In this document: piece after piece, positions 6,730-33,283 of the stretch | Numbering within the stretch: the stretch's first letter is position 1 | Layout: each line of letters begins with the position of its first letter | Assembly: GCA_036383255.1 (NCBI GenBank) | Contig: DASVOS010000004.1 | Location: forward strand, 62,001-126,000 | Reading direction: 5' to 3' | DNA from: Gammaproteobacteria bacterium | Lineage (GTDB): Bacteria > Pseudomonadota > Gammaproteobacteria > Natronospirales > REEB76 | DNA length: 64,000 nucleotides | Made by a program: the position numbers and the translations under genes | The notes under the pieces: model-generated | What the model was told of the DNA's origin: nothing | Seen by the model: only the letters and a program-made list of their open reading frames with translations | Database searches by the model: none

Positions 6730-7272
6730 ATGCACCTCGGGAACAGACTGACCGCGTTCTGCCTCATGGCCGTCTTCGCGCTGGCGACCTCCCACGCGGC
6801 CGAACAGGCTCCACCCGCCTCCACCGCCGAGGTGCCCCAGACCTTGGATCTCGGTTCCGTCCACGTGAGCGGGAAGATCCAGGTGGCCCAGGTGCTCGCC
6901 ACCATCAAGCAGGCGCTGAAGGCGCCCGACTCCACCGACGCCAAGCACCGGGACGACCTCGTATGCCGCTTCGTGAAGGAGCTGGCGAATCCACGCACCT
7001 ATCTAGATTGCGCCACCAATGCCACCAACGGCCAGCGGCGCACCAACACCCAGACCTCGCGCTTGGCGGCGGCCTGCAGCTCCCAGACCTGCGACAAACC
7101 ACAGGACTTCAACGTCATCATCCACACGCTGGTGGCGAACCAGCCGGGAGACCGGCTGCACGTGCAGGTGAATCCCCATGACTTCAGGAAGATGCTGGAA
7201 AGCGTGACGGTGGCTCCGCCCGCCTCCACCGTGCCCGCTGCAGCGCCCGCTGCGGCGACCCGCGGTCTTTGA
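6730..7272 (+). CDS. Exported small protein, four-paralogue family, member A
   Basis: 180 aa of unknown function. A Sec signal peptide (residues 1-23, ending SHA/AEQ) is followed by the family core: LDLGSVHVSG at 39-48, an IKQAL segment, then Cys79 and Cys94 (C-x14-C) with YLDCATN, an NQPGDRLHVQV motif and a Pro/Ala-rich tail. It is the most divergent of the four and has an extra cysteine pair, C116 and C121, so a second disulfide is possible. The ATG at 6730 has GGAGG 8 bases upstream. It converges on ridA with a 3-base gap. I recognise no named family. Confidence 0.8.
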   Translation: MHLGNRLTAFCLMAVFALATSHAAEQAPPASTAEVPQTLDLGSVHVSGKIQVAQVLATIKQALKAPDSTDAKHRDDLVCRFVKELANPRTYLDCATNATNGQRRTNTQTSRLAAACSSQTCDKPQDFNVIIHTLVANQPGDRLHVQVNPHDFRKMLESVTVAPPASTVPAAAPAAATRGL

Positions 7273-7275
7273 CGG

Positions 7276-7659
7276 TCAGGCCACCACCATCACCGCGTCG
7301 ATCTCCACCCGCGCGCCGCGCGGCAGCGCTGCGACGCCGATGGTGGCACGGGCCGGATAGGGCTCCTGGAAGTATTCGGCCATGACTTCGTTCACCTGGG
7401 GGAAGTGCCCGAGGTCGGTAAGGAAGATGGTGACACGGACCACGTCCTTGAGCCCGTCGCCCGCGGTCGAGGCGACTGCCTTCAGGTTCTCGAACACCCG
7501 GCGTGTCTCCTGCTTGATGTCGCCGCTCACGAGCTCACCGGTCCTGGGGTCCAGCGGGATCTGCCCCGAGAGGTACACCGTGTTGCCGGCGCGGACCGCC
7601 TGGGAGTACGGGCCGATGGCGCGGGGAGCCTGGTCGGTGAACACGCTGGTGCGGGCCAT
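7276..7659 (-). CDS. ridA: RidA family enamine/imine deaminase
   Basis: 127 aa. Family members hydrolyse reactive 2-aminoacrylate and related enamines, protecting PLP enzymes. Typical features are [24 protein letters not shown], the trimer-forming core and [20 protein letters not shown], which carries the substrate-binding arginine. The ATG at 7659 ([16 protein letters not shown]) has AAGAGGT upstream; longer readings run into the promoter of the next paralogue. It sits between two members of the small exported family on the opposite strand, with no obvious functional link. Confidence 0.93.
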
Positions 7660-18637: not shown

Positions 18638-18647
18638 GCATCCCCTT

Positions 18648-18675
18648 CCGGGCCGCCCCTGTTCGGGTGGCCCGG
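18648..18675 (+). terminator. Hairpin after rpmE
   Basis: CCGGGCC and GGCCCGG pair, continuing inward for 11 bp with one G-T pair around a 6-base loop. No T-run follows, so termination is likely but not certain. Confidence 0.5.
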
Positions 18676-18806
18676 ATTCCCCCACCCCCTCCATTCCAGG
18701 GCCTTCCGGCCCCGGGCTTGTATTGCCTCGGCCGGGGCATATACTTGATTTGACACTTTCTGACCGTGTTTTTGGGAACCTCGATAACCATAAAGGGGTG
18801 AGAGCG

Positions 18807-19085
18807 ATGTCCCAGGGGAACCTGTTCAAGACTGTCCCGCCCCTCTTGCTGGCCACGCTCGTGGCGGTCCTGTTCGTGGCGGCCTGCGTCTCCTCCGGCA
18901 GCGACTACGGCGGCGGCGGCAGTTCCGGTAGCGGCGGCGGCGGCAACGGCTGCCCAGCCGGTGACTGCAACTCCAACGGCTACTGCTGCCCGTCGAACAC
19001 GCCCTACGGCTGCAACGGCTACTGCTATGCCACCTACAACGATGGCGCGGCGGCCGGCTGCACGGACTATAAGACCGTCTGCTGA
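18807..19085 (+). CDS. Eight-cysteine lipoprotein of unknown function
   Basis: 92 aa from the ATG at 18807, with AAGGGG about 9 bases upstream. A hydrophobic signal (11-26) ends FVAAC, giving lipid Cys27. A Gly/Ser-rich linker (about 28-48) leads to a compact C-terminal domain with eight cysteines in about 45 residues: CPAGDC, YCC, GC, YC, GC and a terminal VC. This is a disulfide-rich, knottin-like layout on a membrane anchor. The next gene encodes a DsbA-like protein 19 bases away, an obvious candidate to form these disulfides. I do not recognise the domain. Confidence 0.78.
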   Translation: MSQGNLFKTVPPLLLATLVAVLFVAACVSSGSDYGGGGSSGSGGGGNGCPAGDCNSNGYCCPSNTPYGCNGYCYATYNDGAAAGCTDYKTVC

Positions 19086-19104
19086 TCCCAAAGGCGGCGC
19101 TCCC

Positions 19105-19746
19105 ATGACCCGTCCTCCTGCCGCGCGTGCGACGCGCTGGCTGCTTGCATTGCTGGCGGTGAGCGTCCTCACCAACCTTCTGTTCGCCTACCGCATCTAC
19201 CTGCCGCGCTGGGTGCAGCGCTGGCACGAGGCCATGGCGGTGCTGCCACCGGTGCAGGCCGGCGAGCACCTGCGCGGTCCCGCCGATGCCCGCGTGACCC
19301 TGGTCGAATACTCGGACTTCCAGTGCCCCTACTGCGCCACCCTGCACCAGGAGCTGCGCGAGGGCGCCGGCGGCGTGCGCTGGGTGTACCGCCACGACAC
19401 CCTGAACGCGGGACACCCGGAGGCGAACCCTGCCGCCGAGGCGGCCGAGTGCGCCGGCGAACAGGGACGATTCTGGGACTATGCGGATGCGCTGTTCGTG
19501 AACCAGAAAGAACTCGGCGCCACGCTCTACTCCAGGCTCGCAGGGGAACTCGGCCTCGACGTCCCGCGCTTCGGCGCCTGCCTGAGTTCGGGCAAGTACC
19601 GCACGCTCATCCGGCAGGAAGCCGCCGGGGTGGCGGAGTTGCACCTCATCGGCACCCCCACCTGGTTCGTGAACGGCAAACGCTACATGGGCGCGCGGGA
19701 CGCCAAGGCCCTGGCGGGAATACTGCAGGCAGCGGCCGCGCCATGA
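19105..19746 (+). CDS. Membrane-anchored DsbA-like thiol-disulfide oxidoreductase
   Basis: 213 aa. An uncleaved N-terminal helix (about 12-29) is followed by a thioredoxin-fold domain. The active site is CPYC (C74-C77) in YSDFQCPYC, and the cis-proline loop reads GTPTWFVNGKRY. It resembles the Thioredoxin_4/DsbA-like group, which oxidises or isomerises disulfides outside the cytoplasm. The stop overlaps the start of the GspC-like gene (ATGA). Placed directly after an eight-cysteine lipoprotein, it is plausibly its dedicated folding partner; that link is inference. Confidence 0.85.
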   Translation: MTRPPAARATRWLLALLAVSVLTNLLFAYRIYLPRWVQRWHEAMAVLPPVQAGEHLRGPADARVTLVEYSDFQCPYCATLHQELREGAGGVRWVYRHDTLNAGHPEANPAAEAAECAGEQGRFWDYADALFVNQKELGATLYSRLAGELGLDVPRFGACLSSGKYRTLIRQEAAGVAELHLIGTPTWFVNGKRYMGARDAKALAGILQAAAAP

Positions 19747-20414
19747 AGCACGTGCTCCTGCTCGTGCTGCTCCTGCCGATGGCGGTCTTGGGCGCGCCCG
19801 CGCCGGACCTTACCCTCAGCGGCGTGATCCTGGATGGCGCCGACAGCCTCGCGCTCATCCGCGTGGACGCAGGCCGCGACCGCGGCTTCCGCGTGGGTGA
19901 CCGGGTTGCATCGGGCCTCACGCTCGCAGGCATCGAGGCGAACCAGGTCTGGCTCGAGGGAGACGGAACGCGGCGCGCGCTCATGTTGGCGGGACTCGGC
20001 GAGCACGGCGCCGCGGCCGGGGGCGGTGCCCCGCGCGTGGTTCGGGCGATGCCTGCCCACGCGGACGCGTTCCTCGACCCCATGCCGGGCATCAGCTACG
20101 TCAGCGACACCCACTTCATCGTCTCACGCGGCACGTTGCAGTCGTTCCTGGGCTCACCTAAGGCGCTCAGCGAGGCGCGCTGGCTGCTGCAGAAGGACGG
20201 CGGCCTCTTCATCGCCAGCATCAAGCGCGGCAGCGCTTACGAGAAGGCGGGTCTTCGGGTCGGCGACGTGCTGCAGCAGGTGAACGGCAAGACCCTGAAG
20301 AGCACCGATGATGTATATGCCCTCTACGGCGGACTCGGGAAGCTCGAGCACCTGGACCTCACGGTCCGGCGCATGGGCCGGGAAGAGCACCTGCTCTACG
20401 ATTTCCGGCCCTGA
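19743..20414 (+). CDS. GspC-like periplasmic protein with HR and PDZ domains
   Basis: 223 aa. A cleavable-looking signal (1-18) is followed by a homology region like that of type II secretion protein C (LTLSGVILDGADSLALIRVD, VGDRVASGLTLAGIEANQVWLE, residues about 22-80). A C-terminal PDZ follows (GGLFIASIKRGSAYEKAGLRVGDVLQQVNGKTL, about 150-185). True GspC has an N-terminal membrane anchor and sits in a gsp operon; neither is the case here. It starts inside the stop of the DsbA-like gene. It may scaffold the neighbouring exported proteins. Confidence 0.72.
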   Translation: MKHVLLLVLLLPMAVLGAPAPDLTLSGVILDGADSLALIRVDAGRDRGFRVGDRVASGLTLAGIEANQVWLEGDGTRRALMLAGLGEHGAAAGGGAPRVVRAMPAHADAFLDPMPGISYVSDTHFIVSRGTLQSFLGSPKALSEARWLLQKDGGLFIASIKRGSAYEKAGLRVGDVLQQVNGKTLKSTDDVYALYGGLGKLEHLDLTVRRMGREEHLLYDFRP

Positions 20415-26283: not shown

Positions 26284-27342
26284 GTGCTGTTCAGGCCTTC
26301 GTCACCCCCCCTCTTGGGCATCGACATCAGCACCTCATCGGTGAAGCTCATCGAGCTCGCCAAGCAGGGCGGGTCCTATAGGGTGGAGAGTTTCGCGGCG
26401 GAACCGATGCCGTCCAATGCTATCACCGACAAGGTGATCATGGACGTGGACGCCGCCGGCGACGCCGTGCGCAAGGCCGTAAAACACGCCAGCCCCAAGT
26501 CCAAGTACGCCGCCGTGGCCCTCTCCGGCCAGGTCATGACCAAGACCATCCAGATGCCCGCCAAGCTCTCCGACAAGGACCTGGGCGAGCAGATCGAGCT
26601 GCAGGCCGATCAATACATATCGCAGCCCATCGAGGAAGTGGCCTTCGACTACGAGATCGTGGGCCCCTCACAAAGCGACCCGGATCTCGTGGACGTGCTG
26701 CTGGTGGCCGCCCGCCGCGAGAGCGTGGACAAGCTCGTGAGCGTGCTGGACATCGCCGGCCTCACGGCGAAGCTGGTGGACGTGGAGGCCTTCGCCCTCG
26801 AGAACGCCTGCAAGCTGCTCACCTACCAGATGATGGACGAGGGCCTGGACCGCACCATCGCGCTGGTCGACTTCGGCGCCGCCACCACGTCCTTCAGCGT
26901 GCTGCACGACCGCAAGATCATCTACACCTACAACAGCGACTTCGGCGGCAAGCAGCTGACCGAGGAGATCATGCGCCACTACGGCCTCACCTTCGAGGAG
27001 GCCGGCAAGGCGAAGAAAGAAGGCGGCCTGCCCGGCAACTACAAGGTCGAGATCCTCGATCCCTTCACCGACGACATGGCGCAGACCGTGAACCGCTCGC
27101 TGCAGTTCTTCCTCTCCTCCACCAGCGAGTACACCCACCTCGACCAGATCATCGTGTGCGGTGGCTGCGCGGGCATCCCCGGCGCGGCCGAACGCATCAG
27201 CGAGAAGATGGGCACGCCGGCCGTGATCGGCAACCCGTTCGGGCAGATGAAGGTGTCCTCGCGCGCCAAGACCCAGCTGGTCCAGAGCGAGGCCTCGGCA
27301 CTGTTGGTAGCCTGCGGGCTCGCGCTGCGGAGCTTCGACTGA
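26284..27342 (+). CDS. pilM: Type IV pilus assembly protein PilM
   Basis: 352 aa from GTG at 26284, with GAGGA 10 bases upstream. An actin/FtsA-like ATPase that forms a cytoplasmic ring and binds the N-terminus of PilN. Actin-fold signatures are LLGIDISTSSVKLIEL (phosphate 1), ALVDFGAATTSFSVL (phosphate 2) and IIVCGGCAGIPG (adenosine). It is first of pilMNOPQ, all on the plus strand with minimal spacing. Confidence 0.96.
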   Translation: MLFRPSSPPLLGIDISTSSVKLIELAKQGGSYRVESFAAEPMPSNAITDKVIMDVDAAGDAVRKAVKHASPKSKYAAVALSGQVMTKTIQMPAKLSDKDLGEQIELQADQYISQPIEEVAFDYEIVGPSQSDPDLVDVLLVAARRESVDKLVSVLDIAGLTAKLVDVEAFALENACKLLTYQMMDEGLDRTIALVDFGAATTSFSVLHDRKIIYTYNSDFGGKQLTEEIMRHYGLTFEEAGKAKKEGGLPGNYKVEILDPFTDDMAQTVNRSLQFFLSSTSEYTHLDQIIVCGGCAGIPGAAERISEKMGTPAVIGNPFGQMKVSSRAKTQLVQSEASALLVACGLALRSFD

Positions 27343-27343
27343 C

Positions 27344-27934
27344 ATGGCGCGCATAAACCTACTTCCCTGGCGCGAAGAGCGGCGCAAGGCCCGCCAGACG
27401 CAGTTCAACATCCTGGCCGGCGTGGTCGCCGCCGCCGGCGCGTTCAGCGTGTTCCTCATGTACCTCTGGATGAACGAGGCGATCTCGATCCAGAACGAGC
27501 GCAACGCGTACATGACCGACCAGATCAAGCTCATGGACAGCAAGCTGGATGAGATCAAGGACCTGCAGGACACCAAGCAGAACCTGCTGGCCCGCATGCA
27601 GATCATCCAGCAGCTGCAGCAGAGCCGTCCGGTGGTGGTGCACCTGTTCGACCAGCTGGTGAAGACCCTGCCGCCGGGCGTGTACCTGAGCAGCGTCACC
27701 GAGAGCGGCGCCAACCTCACCATCGAGGGCAGCGCCGAATCCAGCGCGCGCATCTCCACCTACCTGCGCAACATCGACTCCTCCCCGTTCATGGGTGAGC
27801 CCAACCTCACGGTGGTGCAGAAGGATCCCGTCAAGAGTGGCGCGCAGAAGTTCACCATCACCGCCAAGGTCATCGACAAGGCGGCTCTGGCGCAGAAGGC
27901 GGCCGAGGCCGCAGCCGGCAAGGGAGGTGCGTGA
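27344..27934 (+). CDS. pilN: Type IV pilus assembly protein PilN
   Basis: 196 aa. It begins with the PilM-binding motif MARINLLPWREERR, then one transmembrane helix (about 24-43), a coiled coil and a periplasmic ferredoxin-like domain. It forms the inner-membrane alignment complex with PilO. It starts one base after the pilM stop and its own stop overlaps pilO. The C-terminus is Ala-rich. Confidence 0.95.
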   Translation: MARINLLPWREERRKARQTQFNILAGVVAAAGAFSVFLMYLWMNEAISIQNERNAYMTDQIKLMDSKLDEIKDLQDTKQNLLARMQIIQQLQQSRPVVVHLFDQLVKTLPPGVYLSSVTESGANLTIEGSAESSARISTYLRNIDSSPFMGEPNLTVVQKDPVKSGAQKFTITAKVIDKAALAQKAAEAAAGKGGA

Positions 27935-28626
27935 TGGCCCTCGACCTGAACGCCCTCAAGAACTTCGACATCAACCAGCTGCGCTCGCTGGACCCCAAGA
28001 ACATGGGCAGCTGGCCGCTGCCCATCCGCATCCTGGTGCTCATCGGCATCTACGGCGGCGTGCTGATCGCCGGCTACTACTTCCTGATCTCCGACCAGGT
28101 CACCAACCGCGCCAAGCTGGTGGCCAGCGAAGCCTCGCTCAAGGCCCAGTTCGAGTCCAAGGCGCTGCAGGCCGCCAACCTCGACACCTACAAACAGCAG
28201 CTGGACGACATGCAGAAGTCCTTCGGCACCATGCTGCGCCAGTTGCCCGGCAAGACCGAGCTGCCCAGCATCCTGCAGGACATCTCGCAGGCCGCACAGG
28301 TGGACGGCCTCAAGCAGGACCTGTTCCGGCCCGGCAACGAGGCGACCCGCGATTTCTATGCCGAGAAACCCATCGACCTGCAGGTCGACGGCGGCTTCCA
28401 CGACTTCGGCAAGTTCGTGAGCGACGTGGCGGCGCTGCCGCGCATCGTCACGCTGCACAACATCGTGATCAAGCCCGCCGCCGGAGCTGGCGGCAGCGAC
28501 AACCTGACCATGACGCTCACCGCCAAGACCTACCGCTACATGGAAGACGACGAGCAGCAGGCAGCCAAGCCCAAGGCCAAGGCCGCCAAGAAGCCCGCCG
28601 GCAAGGACAAGGGGGGTGAAGGGTGA
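27934..28626 (+). CDS. pilO: Type IV pilus assembly protein PilO
   Basis: 230 aa from the ATG at 27934, which overlaps the pilN stop (TGATG). A single membrane helix (about 29-50: ILVLIGIYGGVLIAGYYFLI) is followed by a coiled coil (KQQLDDMQKSFGTMLRQLP) and a periplasmic domain; it heterodimerises with PilN. The C-terminal 20 residues are Lys-rich. It overlaps pilP by four bases. Confidence 0.94.
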   Translation: MALDLNALKNFDINQLRSLDPKNMGSWPLPIRILVLIGIYGGVLIAGYYFLISDQVTNRAKLVASEASLKAQFESKALQAANLDTYKQQLDDMQKSFGTMLRQLPGKTELPSILQDISQAAQVDGLKQDLFRPGNEATRDFYAEKPIDLQVDGGFHDFGKFVSDVAALPRIVTLHNIVIKPAAGAGGSDNLTMTLTAKTYRYMEDDEQQAAKPKAKAAKKPAGKDKGGEG

Positions 28627-29156
28627 CGCGCCGCTCCGCCAAGCTCGCCGCCGGCATCGCCGCGCTCGCGCTGCTCGCCGCCTGCGGCGACCGCATGGGC
28701 GACCTGCGCCAGTACACCAACGACGTGAAAGCCAAGAAGGGCGGCCGCATCGAGCCGATCCCGCAGATCAAGCCGTTCGAGGTGTTCACCTACGCGGACC
28801 AGGACGAGCGCTCGCCGTTCGTGCCGCAGGCCCAGGGCACCAACAAGTCGAACGTGAACAGCGGCACTTCGACCGCCGGACTGCACCCGGACTTCAACCG
28901 CAACCACGAGTACCTGGAGCAGTTCCCGCTGGACGGCCTGAAGATGGTGGGCACGCTCACCCTGAGCGGCAACCTGTACGCCCTGGTCAAGGACAGCGAC
29001 AACATCCTGCACCGCGTCGGCCTCGGCAACTACATGGGCCAGAACTACGGCAAGGTCATCAGCATCACCGATTCCGGCATCAAGCTGCGGGAGATCGTCC
29101 CGGACGGCCAGGGCGGCTGGTCGGAACGCGTCACCGACGTGACGCTCAGCGACTGA
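28623..29156 (+). CDS. pilP: Type IV pilus lipoprotein PilP
   Basis: 177 aa from GTG at 28623 overlapping the pilO stop. The signal peptide ends LLAAC (lipid Cys21). Typical PilP features are RIEPIPQIKPFEVFTY and the beta domain with KMVGTLTLSGNLYALVKDSDNILHRVGLGNYMGQNYGKV, which bridges PilNO to the secretin PilQ. The spacing to pilQ is 17 bases. Confidence 0.95.
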   Translation: MTRRSAKLAAGIAALALLAACGDRMGDLRQYTNDVKAKKGGRIEPIPQIKPFEVFTYADQDERSPFVPQAQGTNKSNVNSGTSTAGLHPDFNRNHEYLEQFPLDGLKMVGTLTLSGNLYALVKDSDNILHRVGLGNYMGQNYGKVISITDSGIKLREIVPDGQGGWSERVTDVTLSD

Positions 29157-29173
29157 GAGCGAGGTACACAGCC

Positions 29174-31498
29174 ATGAACACCAAGACATATACCCTGCAC
29201 ACCGCGCTCCTGGCGGCCGCGCTGCTCGTCGCCGGCCCCGCCGTCGCGGCCGATGCCGGCCACAACCAGCTGCAGAGCATCAACGCCGCCAAGCTCGGAG
29301 GCGACCGCGTGCAGATCGCGCTGACGCTCTCCGGCGCGCCGGCTCAGGCGCCGCTCTCCTTCACCGTGAACCAGCCGGCGCGCATCGCGCTCGACCTGCC
29401 GGACACGCGCCTGTCCCTCAAGGACCGCAAGACCGACGTGCAGGCGGGCATGGTCAACAGCATCGTGACCGCCGAGGCCGGCGGCCGCTCGCGGGTGGTG
29501 ATCAACCTCACCACCCTGGTGCCCTACACCGTCAAGACCGACGGCAACACGGTCTACGTGATCGTCGGTGCCAACGCCGCCGACACCGCCGTCGCCAGCG
29601 CCAACATCTCGAGCTTCGGCCCGCAGGCCACCGGCATGCCGGCCGCCGCGGCGCCCGAGAGCAAGCCGGCCGCGGTGGCAGCGGCTCCGGTCCCGGTCCC
29701 CACTCCGGCTGTCGCACCGAGTCAGGTTGCGCAGGCGCCTGCCAGCGCGCCCCAGCAGACGGTCGCCCCGGCCCGTGCCGCGGCGCCTTCGGGCGGCAAC
29801 GTGATCGCCAACCTCGACTTCCGCCGCGGCAAGGACGGCAGTGGCGAGATCCTGGTGACGCTGCCCAACCCCGGCATCATCGGCAACGTGCACGACCAGA
29901 ACGGCAACGTGGCGGTGGATTTCGCCGGCGCCAAGCTGCCCGAGGAACTGGTGCGGCGCATGGACGTGACCGACTTCGCGACGCCCGTACAGTTCGTGGA
30001 TGCGCAGAACACGCCCACCGGCGCCCAGCTCGTGATCCACTCCACCGGCCGCTTCGAGAAGCTGGCCTACCAGAGCGACGATACCTTCTCGGTCGAGCTC
30101 AAGCCCCTGACCCAGGTGGCCCAGGCCCAGTTCGAGGCCAAGAAGCAGTACGGCGGCCAGAAGATCAGCCTTAACTTCCAGAGCATCGACGTGCGCGCGG
30201 TGCTGCAGATCCTGGCGGACGCCAGTGGCAAGAACATCGTGGTGTCTGACGCGGTGAACGGCAACATCACCCTGCGCCTGCAGGACGTGCCGTGGGACCA
30301 GGCGCTCGACATCATCATGCACACCAAGGGCCTCGCCACCCGCGAGTACGGCAACGTGCTCATGGTCGGCACGGCCAGCGAGATCTCGGCGCAGGAGCAG
30401 GCTGAAGCCAGCGCCCAGCAGAGCCTGGCCCAGGTGGAACCGCTGCAGTCGGCATTCATCCAGGTGAACTACGCCAAGGCCATCGACCTGCAGGCCTTGG
30501 TGAAGGGCAGCGGCGAGACCGGCATGCTCTCCAAGCGCGGCAGCGTCTCGGTGGACGCCCGTACCAACACCCTGCTGGTGCAGGACACGGCCGACAACAT
30601 CAGCAACATCCGCGCGATGGTGGCCCGCCTCGACGTGGCCGTGAAGCAGGTGCTGATCGAGTCGCGCGTGGTCATCGCCAACAACGACTTCACCCGCGAC
30701 CTGGGCGCGCGCCTGGGCTACAGCGGCTCGCGCACCACCAGCGGCAGCTTCATGACCACGTCCGGCAGCCTGACGGGTACCGACAGCCAGGTGGGCGCGT
30801 TCATCGACAGCAACAATGCGATCGCGAACGCCATCAACAACGGCACCAACCCGCCGGTGCCTGTGGGCTTCACGGTGCCGGGCATCGGTGACCGGCTCAA
30901 CGTGAACCTGCCGAGCGCGCCGGCCGCCGGCTCCATCGCCTTCTCGGTGCTGCGCGGCGACTCGATCATCGACCTCGAGCTCTCGGCCCTGCAGGCCGAG
31001 GGCCAGGGCGAGGTGGTGTCCGCGCCGCGTGTGCTCACCGCCGACCAGAAGCTGGCCCACATCGAACAGGGCGTGCAGATCCCCTACCAGCAGGCTTCCG
31101 CGAGCGGTGCCACCACCACCTCGTTCAAGAACGCGGTGCTGAGCCTGGACGTGACGCCGCAGATCACGCCTGACTCGCGCATCAACATGGATCTCGAGGT
31201 CCACAAGGACAGCGTGGGCCAGAACGTGCAGAGCGCCACAGGCGGCAGCGTGCCCTCCATCGATACCCGCGACGTCAAGACCACGGTGCTGGTCAACAAC
31301 GGCGACACCGTGGTGCTGGGCGGCATCTACGAGACCACCCAGAGCATCGCGGTCACCAAGGTGCCGCTCCTGGGCGACCTGCCGCTGCTCGGCTGGCTGT
31401 TCCGCAATACCCAGACCAAGAACGACAAGGACGAGCTGCTGATCTTCGTGACACCCAAGATACTGGACCAGTCGGCCACGGCCGCCATCGGTCAGTGA
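29174..31498 (+). CDS. pilQ: Type IV pilus secretin PilQ
   Basis: 774 aa. The signal peptide (1-25, ending AVAA) precedes two AMIN-like peptidoglycan-binding regions (about 35-135 and 210-310) split by an Ala/Pro/Val-rich linker. A secretin-TonB N-terminal domain follows (KISLNFQSIDVRAVLQILAD), then N-domains and the outer-membrane secretin domain (GQGEVVSAPRVLTADQKLAHIEQG, VVLGGIYE, PLLGDLPLLGWLFR). The ATG at 29174 follows GAGCGAGG. It forms the outer-membrane pore for the pilus. Confidence 0.96.
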   Translation: MNTKTYTLHTALLAAALLVAGPAVAADAGHNQLQSINAAKLGGDRVQIALTLSGAPAQAPLSFTVNQPARIALDLPDTRLSLKDRKTDVQAGMVNSIVTAEAGGRSRVVINLTTLVPYTVKTDGNTVYVIVGANAADTAVASANISSFGPQATGMPAAAAPESKPAAVAAAPVPVPTPAVAPSQVAQAPASAPQQTVAPARAAAPSGGNVIANLDFRRGKDGSGEILVTLPNPGIIGNVHDQNGNVAVDFAGAKLPEELVRRMDVTDFATPVQFVDAQNTPTGAQLVIHSTGRFEKLAYQSDDTFSVELKPLTQVAQAQFEAKKQYGGQKISLNFQSIDVRAVLQILADASGKNIVVSDAVNGNITLRLQDVPWDQALDIIMHTKGLATREYGNVLMVGTASEISAQEQAEASAQQSLAQVEPLQSAFIQVNYAKAIDLQALVKGSGETGMLSKRGSVSVDARTNTLLVQDTADNISNIRAMVARLDVAVKQVLIESRVVIANNDFTRDLGARLGYSGSRTTSGSFMTTSGSLTGTDSQVGAFIDSNNAIANAINNGTNPPVPVGFTVPGIGDRLNVNLPSAPAAGSIAFSVLRGDSIIDLELSALQAEGQGEVVSAPRVLTADQKLAHIEQGVQIPYQQASASGATTTSFKNAVLSLDVTPQITPDSRINMDLEVHKDSVGQNVQSATGGSVPSIDTRDVKTTVLVNNGDTVVLGGIYETTQSIAVTKVPLLGDLPLLGWLFRNTQTKNDKDELLIFVTPKILDQSATAAIGQ

Positions 31499-31531: not shown

Positions 31532-33283
31532 ATGAGAACCGAAATGCACAAGACCATCATCAAGGGATTCGCCGGAGCGCTGCTCGCGGCGTCGCTCGCC
31601 TCCTGCGGCAGCGGGCTCGGCACCGTGAGCACTGGCGGCGGTACGACCAACAGCAGCGTCCAGCTGGGCAATGGCACCGGCTCTTCCTTCGTCTCGGGCA
31701 CCCTGGCCCTGGGTTCCAGCAGCCTCTCCGCGGGCGGCGCCACCAGCGTCACCGCGACGCTGGTGGATTCCACTGGAACACTCTATAGCCAGCCCGTGGA
31801 CGTGAGCTTCAACTCCCCCTGCGTAAGTTCAGGACTGGCGACCATCACGGATTCCACTGGTGCCGGTAGCGGTACCGTGACCGCCAGCGCTGGCACAGCC
31901 ATCGCCACCTATACCGCCAAGGGTTGCAGCGGTTCCGATACCATCACCGCCACCGCCACGGTAAATAACATCAAGCTCACCGCCACCGCCACGGTCACCG
32001 TGGCCGCCGCAGCGTTAGGTTCTATTCAATTCGTTTCTGCCACCCCCACCGTGATCACTCTCAAGGGCATGGGCGGCGCCGGACTGCAGGAGACATCCAC
32101 CGTCATCTTCGCAGTGAAGGATTCGGTAGGCGGCGCGGTATCGGGAGCTACGGTCGACTTCTCGCTTAACACCAATGTGGGTGGCGTGGCGCTCTCCGCC
32201 AGCAGCGCAGTCAGCGACGCCAACGGCAACGTGCAGACCATCGTGCAGGCTGGTACCTTCGCCGGCCCCGTGATCGTGACCGCTACCACAGTGAAGTCAG
32301 GCACCACCATCTCCACTCAGTCGTCCCAACTCACCATCAACAGCGGCATCCCCTCGCAGGACCATTTCTCCCTGTCGGTGCCGCATTTCAATGTGGATGG
32401 CGGTGATTTCGATGGGACTGAGAACAAGATAACGGTGCGGCTCGCCGACCGATTCGGCAATCCCGTCCCGGATGGCACACCCATCAGCTTCATCAGTAAC
32501 GGACCCGCCGGAGGCGGCTCCGTGCAGGGCTCTTGCATTACCGCCAGTGGCACCTGCAACGTAACATGGACAAGCCAGAATCCTCGTCCTGCAACTACCG
32601 CCGTTTCACATGTAGGCTTCGCCTATATATTGGCCTATGCCATCGGTGAGGAAAGCTTCACCGACAATAACGCAAACGGCGTCTACGACAGCGGTGATGC
32701 ACTCAGTGACATCGGCGAAATCTTCGCTAACTCCAGCGAGACAATCTCCGGCGACACCGTCCACGATTCAGGTGAGATGTTTTTCGATTACGACAGCGAT
32801 AACACTTATTCGATCAAAGATGGAAAATGGGAAGGCGTGAACTGCCAAGGTGGTTCCTCGCTGTGTGGCACTGCAAAATCCCTTGCTGTCGGCACGTATG
32901 TCTGCTTCGTGATGTCCACCTCGGAACCCTCCCCCCCCGTGCTCCCCGCGAGCATTCCTGCCACAGGTGGTTTCGTCACCATCGATATCACTGACCTCAA
33001 TGGCAATGTGATGGCCGCGGGGACCACCATAGAGTTGGTCGAGAATAACGTCACCGATGCGACTCTGACCATGACACCGACCACTGATGGCACGACCTAT
33101 ACGGTTCCTAATACGTCTTGCGCTGCCTCTGCTCTAAGCCCGATTACTACTTTTACCATCACTTTGACCCCGACTGGTCCGGCTCCTTCTGGCAGCTTCC
33201 AGCTCAAGATCACCAGTCCAGGCAATGGAAACGCTGAAGGCTCGGGTACAGTAACCACAACGTCTGCGATACCGATCACGTAA
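31532..33283 (+). CDS. Ig-like (Big_1-type) repeat lipoprotein
   Basis: 583 aa. The lipoprotein signal ends SLASC (Cys25). At least three Ig-like repeats follow: about 50-155, 160-270 (with GAVSGATVDFSLN) and 280-370 (FGNPVPDGTPISF), in the style of invasin/Big_1 domains. A calcium-loop-like, Asp/Asn/Gly-rich insert (FTDNNANGVYDSGD, then FDYDSDNTYS, about 375-430) is also typical of such proteins. GC falls to about 52-55 percent in the second half (64 of 120 bases at 32581-32700), lower than its neighbours. It sits between pilQ and aroK, where most relatives have nothing. Possible adhesin; partner unknown. Confidence 0.82.
   Translation: MRTEMHKTIIKGFAGALLAASLASCGSGLGTVSTGGGTTNSSVQLGNGTGSSFVSGTLALGSSSLSAGGATSVTATLVDSTGTLYSQPVDVSFNSPCVSSGLATITDSTGAGSGTVTASAGTAIATYTAKGCSGSDTITATATVNNIKLTATATVTVAAAALGSIQFVSATPTVITLKGMGGAGLQETSTVIFAVKDSVGGAVSGATVDFSLNTNVGGVALSASSAVSDANGNVQTIVQAGTFAGPVIVTATTVKSGTTISTQSSQLTINSGIPSQDHFSLSVPHFNVDGGDFDGTENKITVRLADRFGNPVPDGTPISFISNGPAGGGSVQGSCITASGTCNVTWTSQNPRPATTAVSHVGFAYILAYAIGEESFTDNNANGVYDSGDALSDIGEIFANSSETISGDTVHDSGEMFFDYDSDNTYSIKDGKWEGVNCQGGSSLCGTAKSLAVGTYVCFVMSTSEPSPPVLPASIPATGGFVTIDITDLNGNVMAAGTTIELVENNVTDATLTMTPTTDGTTYTVPNTSCAASALSPITTFTITLTPTGPAPSGSFQLKITSPGNGNAEGSGTVTTTSAIPIT

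Follow-up and report, generated by a model that had tools for sequence, protein, structure and literature searches.

Within the window, by which we mean the whole 64,000-nucleotide stretch of DNA that was analysed, three open reading frames encoding a lipoprotein, a DsbA-like protein and a GspC-like protein with a GspC homology region (HR) and a PDZ domain lie on the plus strand as one apparent operon, flanked by rpmE and gltA. The lipoprotein gene (18807-19085) is followed on the same strand, after 19 nt, by the gene for the DsbA-like protein (19105-19746), which in turn overlaps the gene for the HR-PDZ protein (19743-20414) by a 4-nt ATGA. GC3 was 0.86-0.91 across all three genes and matched that of the neighbouring genes. 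A ribosome-binding-like sequence (AAGGGGTGA) was found upstream of the lipoprotein gene; the promoter scan gave neither a sigma-70-like site just upstream of this gene nor a promoter-like site between it and the DsbA-like gene. The interval between rpmE and the lipoprotein gene contains a very stable RNA hairpin on the plus strand, with a 12-bp stem and a 6-nt loop (18647-18676; fold z-score -2.43), which has no T-run and was not called by the terminator scan; it is possibly the rpmE terminator or an attenuator.

The lipoprotein (92 residues) gave no family match in profile searches. Its organisation was as had been described in the original prediction, with a Gly/Ser linker and a dense eight-cysteine domain. 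A signal peptide (18807-18887, hydrophobic window at residues 12-28) extends to the lipobox cysteine, Cys27 (VAAC); the lipobox FVAAC occupies residues 23-27, within the signal peptide, and the +2 residue is Val, the arrangement of a bacterial lipoprotein. The linker covers residues 32-48 (18900-18950) and the cysteine-rich domain residues 49-92 (18951-19082), all on the plus strand, with cysteines at positions 49, 54, 60, 61, 69, 73, 85 and 92. With Cys making up 0.92% of residues in the window, at least 8 cysteines among these 44 residues would be expected with a binomial probability of only about 7e-9, so the count is not explained by composition. No relatives of the domain were found in 56 relatives, 369 class genomes, 72,556 plasmids, the PDB or a GTDB contig scan. 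Four apparent matches from the class search were discarded as weak or due to chance, as they lacked the Cys pattern once read, as were matches in G052 and G027 that involved only the signal/linker region of the lipoprotein and a DNA match at C7:42381 that spanned only query nucleotides 87-144, the Gly/Ser-linker region. Because the lipoprotein has no relatives, what ties it to the other two genes is its position in the operon, from which we infer that it belongs with them.

The DsbA-like protein (P0002; 213 residues) has a single hydrophobic segment towards its N-terminus (about residues 12-29), relatives in the PDB, and Pfam matches above cut-off to Thioredoxin_4 (1.8e-22) and DSBA (2.1e-15). 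With CPYC at residues 74-77 (19324-19335, plus strand) and a GTP cis-Pro loop it has the hallmarks of a thioredoxin-fold oxidoreductase, and it agrees with the membrane-anchored CPYC enzyme that had been noted 19 bases behind the lipoprotein gene.

The observation that the overlapping gene encodes a GspC-like protein with HR and PDZ domains and without a membrane anchor was also confirmed. This protein (P0003; 223 residues) has a plausible signal-peptide cleavage site after Ala18, and its HR begins at residue 20, directly after the short signal peptide, so that the anchor and linker that precede the HR in GspC are absent. The HR (residues 20-82; 19800-19988, plus strand), aligned to positions 77-141 of T2SSC (PF11356), scored 32.7 bits against a cut-off of 27 bits (E 8e-8), as expected of a GspC HR, and the C-terminal PDZ domain (about residues 150-216; 20190-20390, plus strand) was above cut-off for both PDZ_6 (1.1e-8) and PDZ (1.8e-7), as in a PDZ-type GspC. 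The protein fell below the curated whole-protein GspC cut-offs, with 92.2 of the 150 bits required for NF041515 (GspC_delta; E 4.8e-26) and 39.8 of 101.6 for TIGR01713, and its gene lies between rpmE and gltA and not in a gsp locus. In a tree of HR-PDZ sequences it was placed, on a long branch, with distant gammaproteobacterial GspCs of family f85. Single-sequence AF2 gave poor models for P0003 (pLDDT 34) and for the eight-Cys domain of the lipoprotein (pLDDT 50).

It had been noted that the locus has no type II secretion (T2SS) neighbours, and this is correct locally, in that no gsp genes are present in the window's neighbourhood. It does not apply to the host genome (2.59 Mb, window included), in which gspC and then gspD lie at the end of contig C9, the GspC being a 335-residue frame with anchor, linker, HR and PDZ, and gspE lies at the end of contig C14 (713 bits, cut-off 630). 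Because gspC, gspD and gspE are neighbours in relatives, the ends of C9 and C14 probably join. No gsp operon complete except for gspC turned up, as the gsp locus carries a gspC of its own, and with gspC-gspD intact on C9 the idea that P0003 is the displaced gspC of the host could be ruled out; it is instead an additional GspC-like protein. A recent duplication of the host gspC was likewise ruled out, as the host's own GspC fell within the clade of its family (SH-aLRT 99) and P0003 outside it.

A type IV pilus operon, apparently in the order pilMNOPQ, was seen at 26284-31498 of the window, with a secretin domain above cut-off at about 30986-31465; the host genome thus has a second secretin besides GspD. 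HR domains are also found in type IV pilus proteins (PilP). Directly behind the pilus secretin gene lies a 583-residue lipoprotein-like open reading frame (31532-33283) with weak Big_1 matches and an unusually low GC3 (0.70).

The three genes had been proposed to form one envelope module, and we searched for the same arrangement in other genomes. The triad was not found in any other genome and no Cys-rich relative was present in the collections searched, so that the three-gene module is a single case and not widespread. The 11 sister-genus genomes contained no close counterparts of the enzyme or of the HR-PDZ protein, none of the 80 nearest GTDB relatives of the enzyme (0/80) had an HR-PDZ gene beside it, and no Cys-rich lipoprotein was seen beside 21 DsbA relatives or at the 80 nearest GTDB DsbA loci. 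As two adjacent genes, the enzyme and the HR-PDZ protein were found only at the window locus.

A class search with the HR-PDZ protein did, however, recover a single polypeptide in which a DsbA-like domain is joined to a GspC-type HR and a PDZ domain (G101:C6), and a phylum search with this fusion recovered another from an unrelated gammaproteobacterial family (G489:C44). The G101 fusion (P0006; 511 residues) has Thioredoxin_4 in the middle and HR and PDZ at the C-terminus; that of G489 has 517 residues, and the two are 37% identical over residues 47-509 (E 9e-82). The HR of the G489 fusion was above the T2SSC cut-off and that of G101 below it (19.9 of 27 bits). The window enzyme is 39% identical to the thioredoxin part of the G101 fusion, and the window HR-PDZ protein 31% identical to its HR-PDZ part. 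Where the window enzyme has CPYC, the fusions have SRHC and SPHC, so that the first catalytic Cys is lost and the thioredoxin domain kept; what is conserved is thus not catalysis. Trees with the window sequences and the fusions as one clade were not rejected, either for the thioredoxin domain (34.8 lnL above the free quick search, AU 0.889) or for HR-PDZ (4.3 lnL above it, AU 0.589). The trees are therefore compatible with a common origin of the window pair and the fusions, although with such long branches they do not amount to proof. Plasmids searched for the fusion contained the thioredoxin part only, and the literature searched, which gave partial coverage, held no description of a thioredoxin-GspC fusion. 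Judged by domain content, the DsbA-like/HR/PDZ unit recurs, in fused form, in unrelated genomes. The module proposed at the outset is thus upheld in part: natural fusions in two other families show that the enzyme and the HR-PDZ protein belong together, whereas the complete triad has no second example.

The surroundings of the fusions were also informative. In G101:C6 the fusion gene is the third on one strand in the order gspA-gspB-fusion (L138:8041-12525), the GspA having AAA, PG_binding and GspA_C39-like domains and the GspB a T2SSB domain; no gspAB was found beside the G489 fusion. This gene order is not among the gspB arrangements named in the passages of PMC9239104 consulted. Both fusion genes lie tail-to-tail with genes for homologous secreted GDSL hydrolases (59% identical, E 9e-121), which contain 12 (G101) and 8 (G489) cysteines; none of the neighbours seen at the fusions is a Cys-rich lipoprotein, the hydrolase standing in its place. 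In three families, then, the thioredoxin/HR/PDZ set lies beside a secreted Cys-containing protein, which is the lipoprotein at the window locus and the hydrolase in G101 and G489.

A GspC-like protein of another kind was seen on the same contig outside the window (G000:C4:36000-44187), where a 213-residue anchored protein has an HR (T2SSC, 2e-7) and no PDZ domain. Its gene (L040:7547-8188, plus strand) is head-to-head with that of a giant secreted RHS/SpvB-domain protein (L040:1-7407, minus strand), and the same divergent pair is present in G005:C70 (L135:1-6573, minus strand, and 6862-7413, plus strand).

In the T2SS the GspC HR binds the N0 domain of the secretin (PMC3169554); GspB has a second HR, which also binds N0 and could replace that of GspC (PMC9239104); and the PDZ domain of EpsC/OutC is required for a subset of cargo only and can bind cargo directly (PMC12369372). 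Given an HR that binds N0 and a PDZ that handles part of the cargo, the combination of an anchored oxidoreductase and a soluble HR-PDZ protein is best understood as an accessory for folding and delivery. We therefore tentatively propose that the operon is a T2SS accessory dedicated to the folding of disulfide-rich cargo and its delivery to the secretin, a reading that may well be right. In the periplasm, the anchored DsbA-like protein would oxidise the Cys-rich cargo, hold it, or both. The soluble HR-PDZ protein would act as a stripped-down GspC: the HR would dock at the N0 entrance of the secretin encoded by gspC-gspD elsewhere in the genome, and the PDZ domain would take up the cargo once folded. 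The co-encoded lipoprotein would be the likeliest cargo, ending on the cell surface. What the sequences show directly is the genes with their domains and order, the T2SS genes elsewhere in the genome and the fusions; secretin docking, the identity of the cargo, its surface display and the formation of disulfides are inferred from these. In favour of the proposal we counted the fusions, the gspA-gspB genes beside one of them, the GDSL neighbours, the match of the window pair to both halves of the G101 fusion, the clade trees and the host's gspC-gspD and gspE, and also, as a further lead of this sort, the HR-only/RHS pair. Against it we counted the lack of a two-gene pair or triad elsewhere, the loss of the first Cys in the fusions, the G489 fusion without gspAB, the link of the lipoprotein by position only, and the fact that an HR also occurs in PilP and the host has a PilQ secretin.

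Surface placing of the lipoprotein does not strictly require a T2SS, and it is conceivable, if in our view unlikely, that the operon is an envelope module independent of this system, in which the DsbA-like protein folds the lipoprotein, the HR-PDZ protein serves as a periplasmic scaffold or holdase and any surface exposure is by another route. The lack of gsp genes around the locus and of gspAB near the G489 fusion would fit such a module, as would an HR-PDZ protein that has lost the parts attaching GspC to the platform, the membrane anchor and the linker. However, neither the window protein nor either fusion has lost the HR, the G101 fusion adjoins gspA-gspB, and an HR binds the secretin in every studied case cited (PMC3169554, PMC9239104). 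The claim that the GspC-like protein had been separated from the T2SS machinery was not sustained, with gspC-gspD and gspE in the genome and a fusion directly behind gspA-gspB; the earlier interpretation, supported in part, should be turned towards type II secretion and not away from it.

The unit might instead consist of the DsbA-like and HR-PDZ genes only, with the lipoprotein as an unrelated upstream orphan and the pair serving other T2SS cargo. That the lipoprotein has no relatives, and that DsbA relatives and fusions have no Cys-rich lipoprotein beside them, the fusions having a GDSL hydrolase in its place, would be explained by this; but the 19-nt spacing on one strand, the dense and even-numbered cysteines next to an oxidoreductase and the lack of another promoter-like site between the two genes speak against it, and we consider it rather unlikely. 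Finally, an anchorless soluble HR could take the place of GspC at N0, and competition between the HRs of GspB and GspC has been considered (PMC9239104), but it is most improbable that the HR-PDZ protein acts by competition, to block or regulate the secretin and not to deliver cargo, as neither a PDZ domain nor a disulfide enzyme would then be needed and the fusion partners point to cargo handling.

The question of how the T2SS selects its folded cargo has long stood open. In a protein type where a disulfide enzyme is physically joined to the secretin- and cargo-gripping parts of GspC, folding would be linked to export, and the folding-and-delivery reading makes the three small genes a testable, minimal set of cargo, enzyme and adaptor. 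A broader and rather doubtful extension is that the T2SS works with GspC-like adaptors that can be exchanged, each specific for a cargo and encoded next to it: a DsbA-linked HR-PDZ type for disulfide-rich proteins (window, G101 and G489) and an anchored HR-only type beside giant RHS proteins (G000 and G005). If this were true, the choice of cargo would be modular, with the entrance of the secretin serving as a shared docking site.

Several known systems resemble parts of the proposed accessory. T2SS-exported surface lipoproteins such as the pullulanase PulA and SslE, in which disulfides are formed ahead of export, provide a parallel for the window lipoprotein as a proposed T2SS cargo; those proteins are, however, large enzymes, and their operons encode no enzyme/adaptor pair dedicated to them. 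The window enzyme shares with DsbA/Thioredoxin_4 oxidoreductases the thioredoxin domain, CPYC, the Thr-Pro loop and an N-terminal membrane segment, and differs in being co-encoded with a GspC-type HR-PDZ protein, to which its domain is elsewhere fused, in that case without the first active-site Cys. GspB/OutB is, in addition to GspC, another protein with an HR domain that binds N0 of the secretin (PMC9239104), and gspAB adjoins the G101 fusion; GspB has a membrane anchor and neither a PDZ nor a thioredoxin partner, and P0003 scored only 13.6 bits to T2SSB. With GspC/OutC/EpsC, P0003 shares the order HR then PDZ and, for GspCs of other gammaproteobacteria, full-length similarity of up to 35% (E 3e-28). 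Unlike these it has a signal peptide in place of the membrane anchor and no linker before the HR, falls below the NCBIfam GspC cut-offs, and is encoded outside the gsp operon in a host that already has a gspC.
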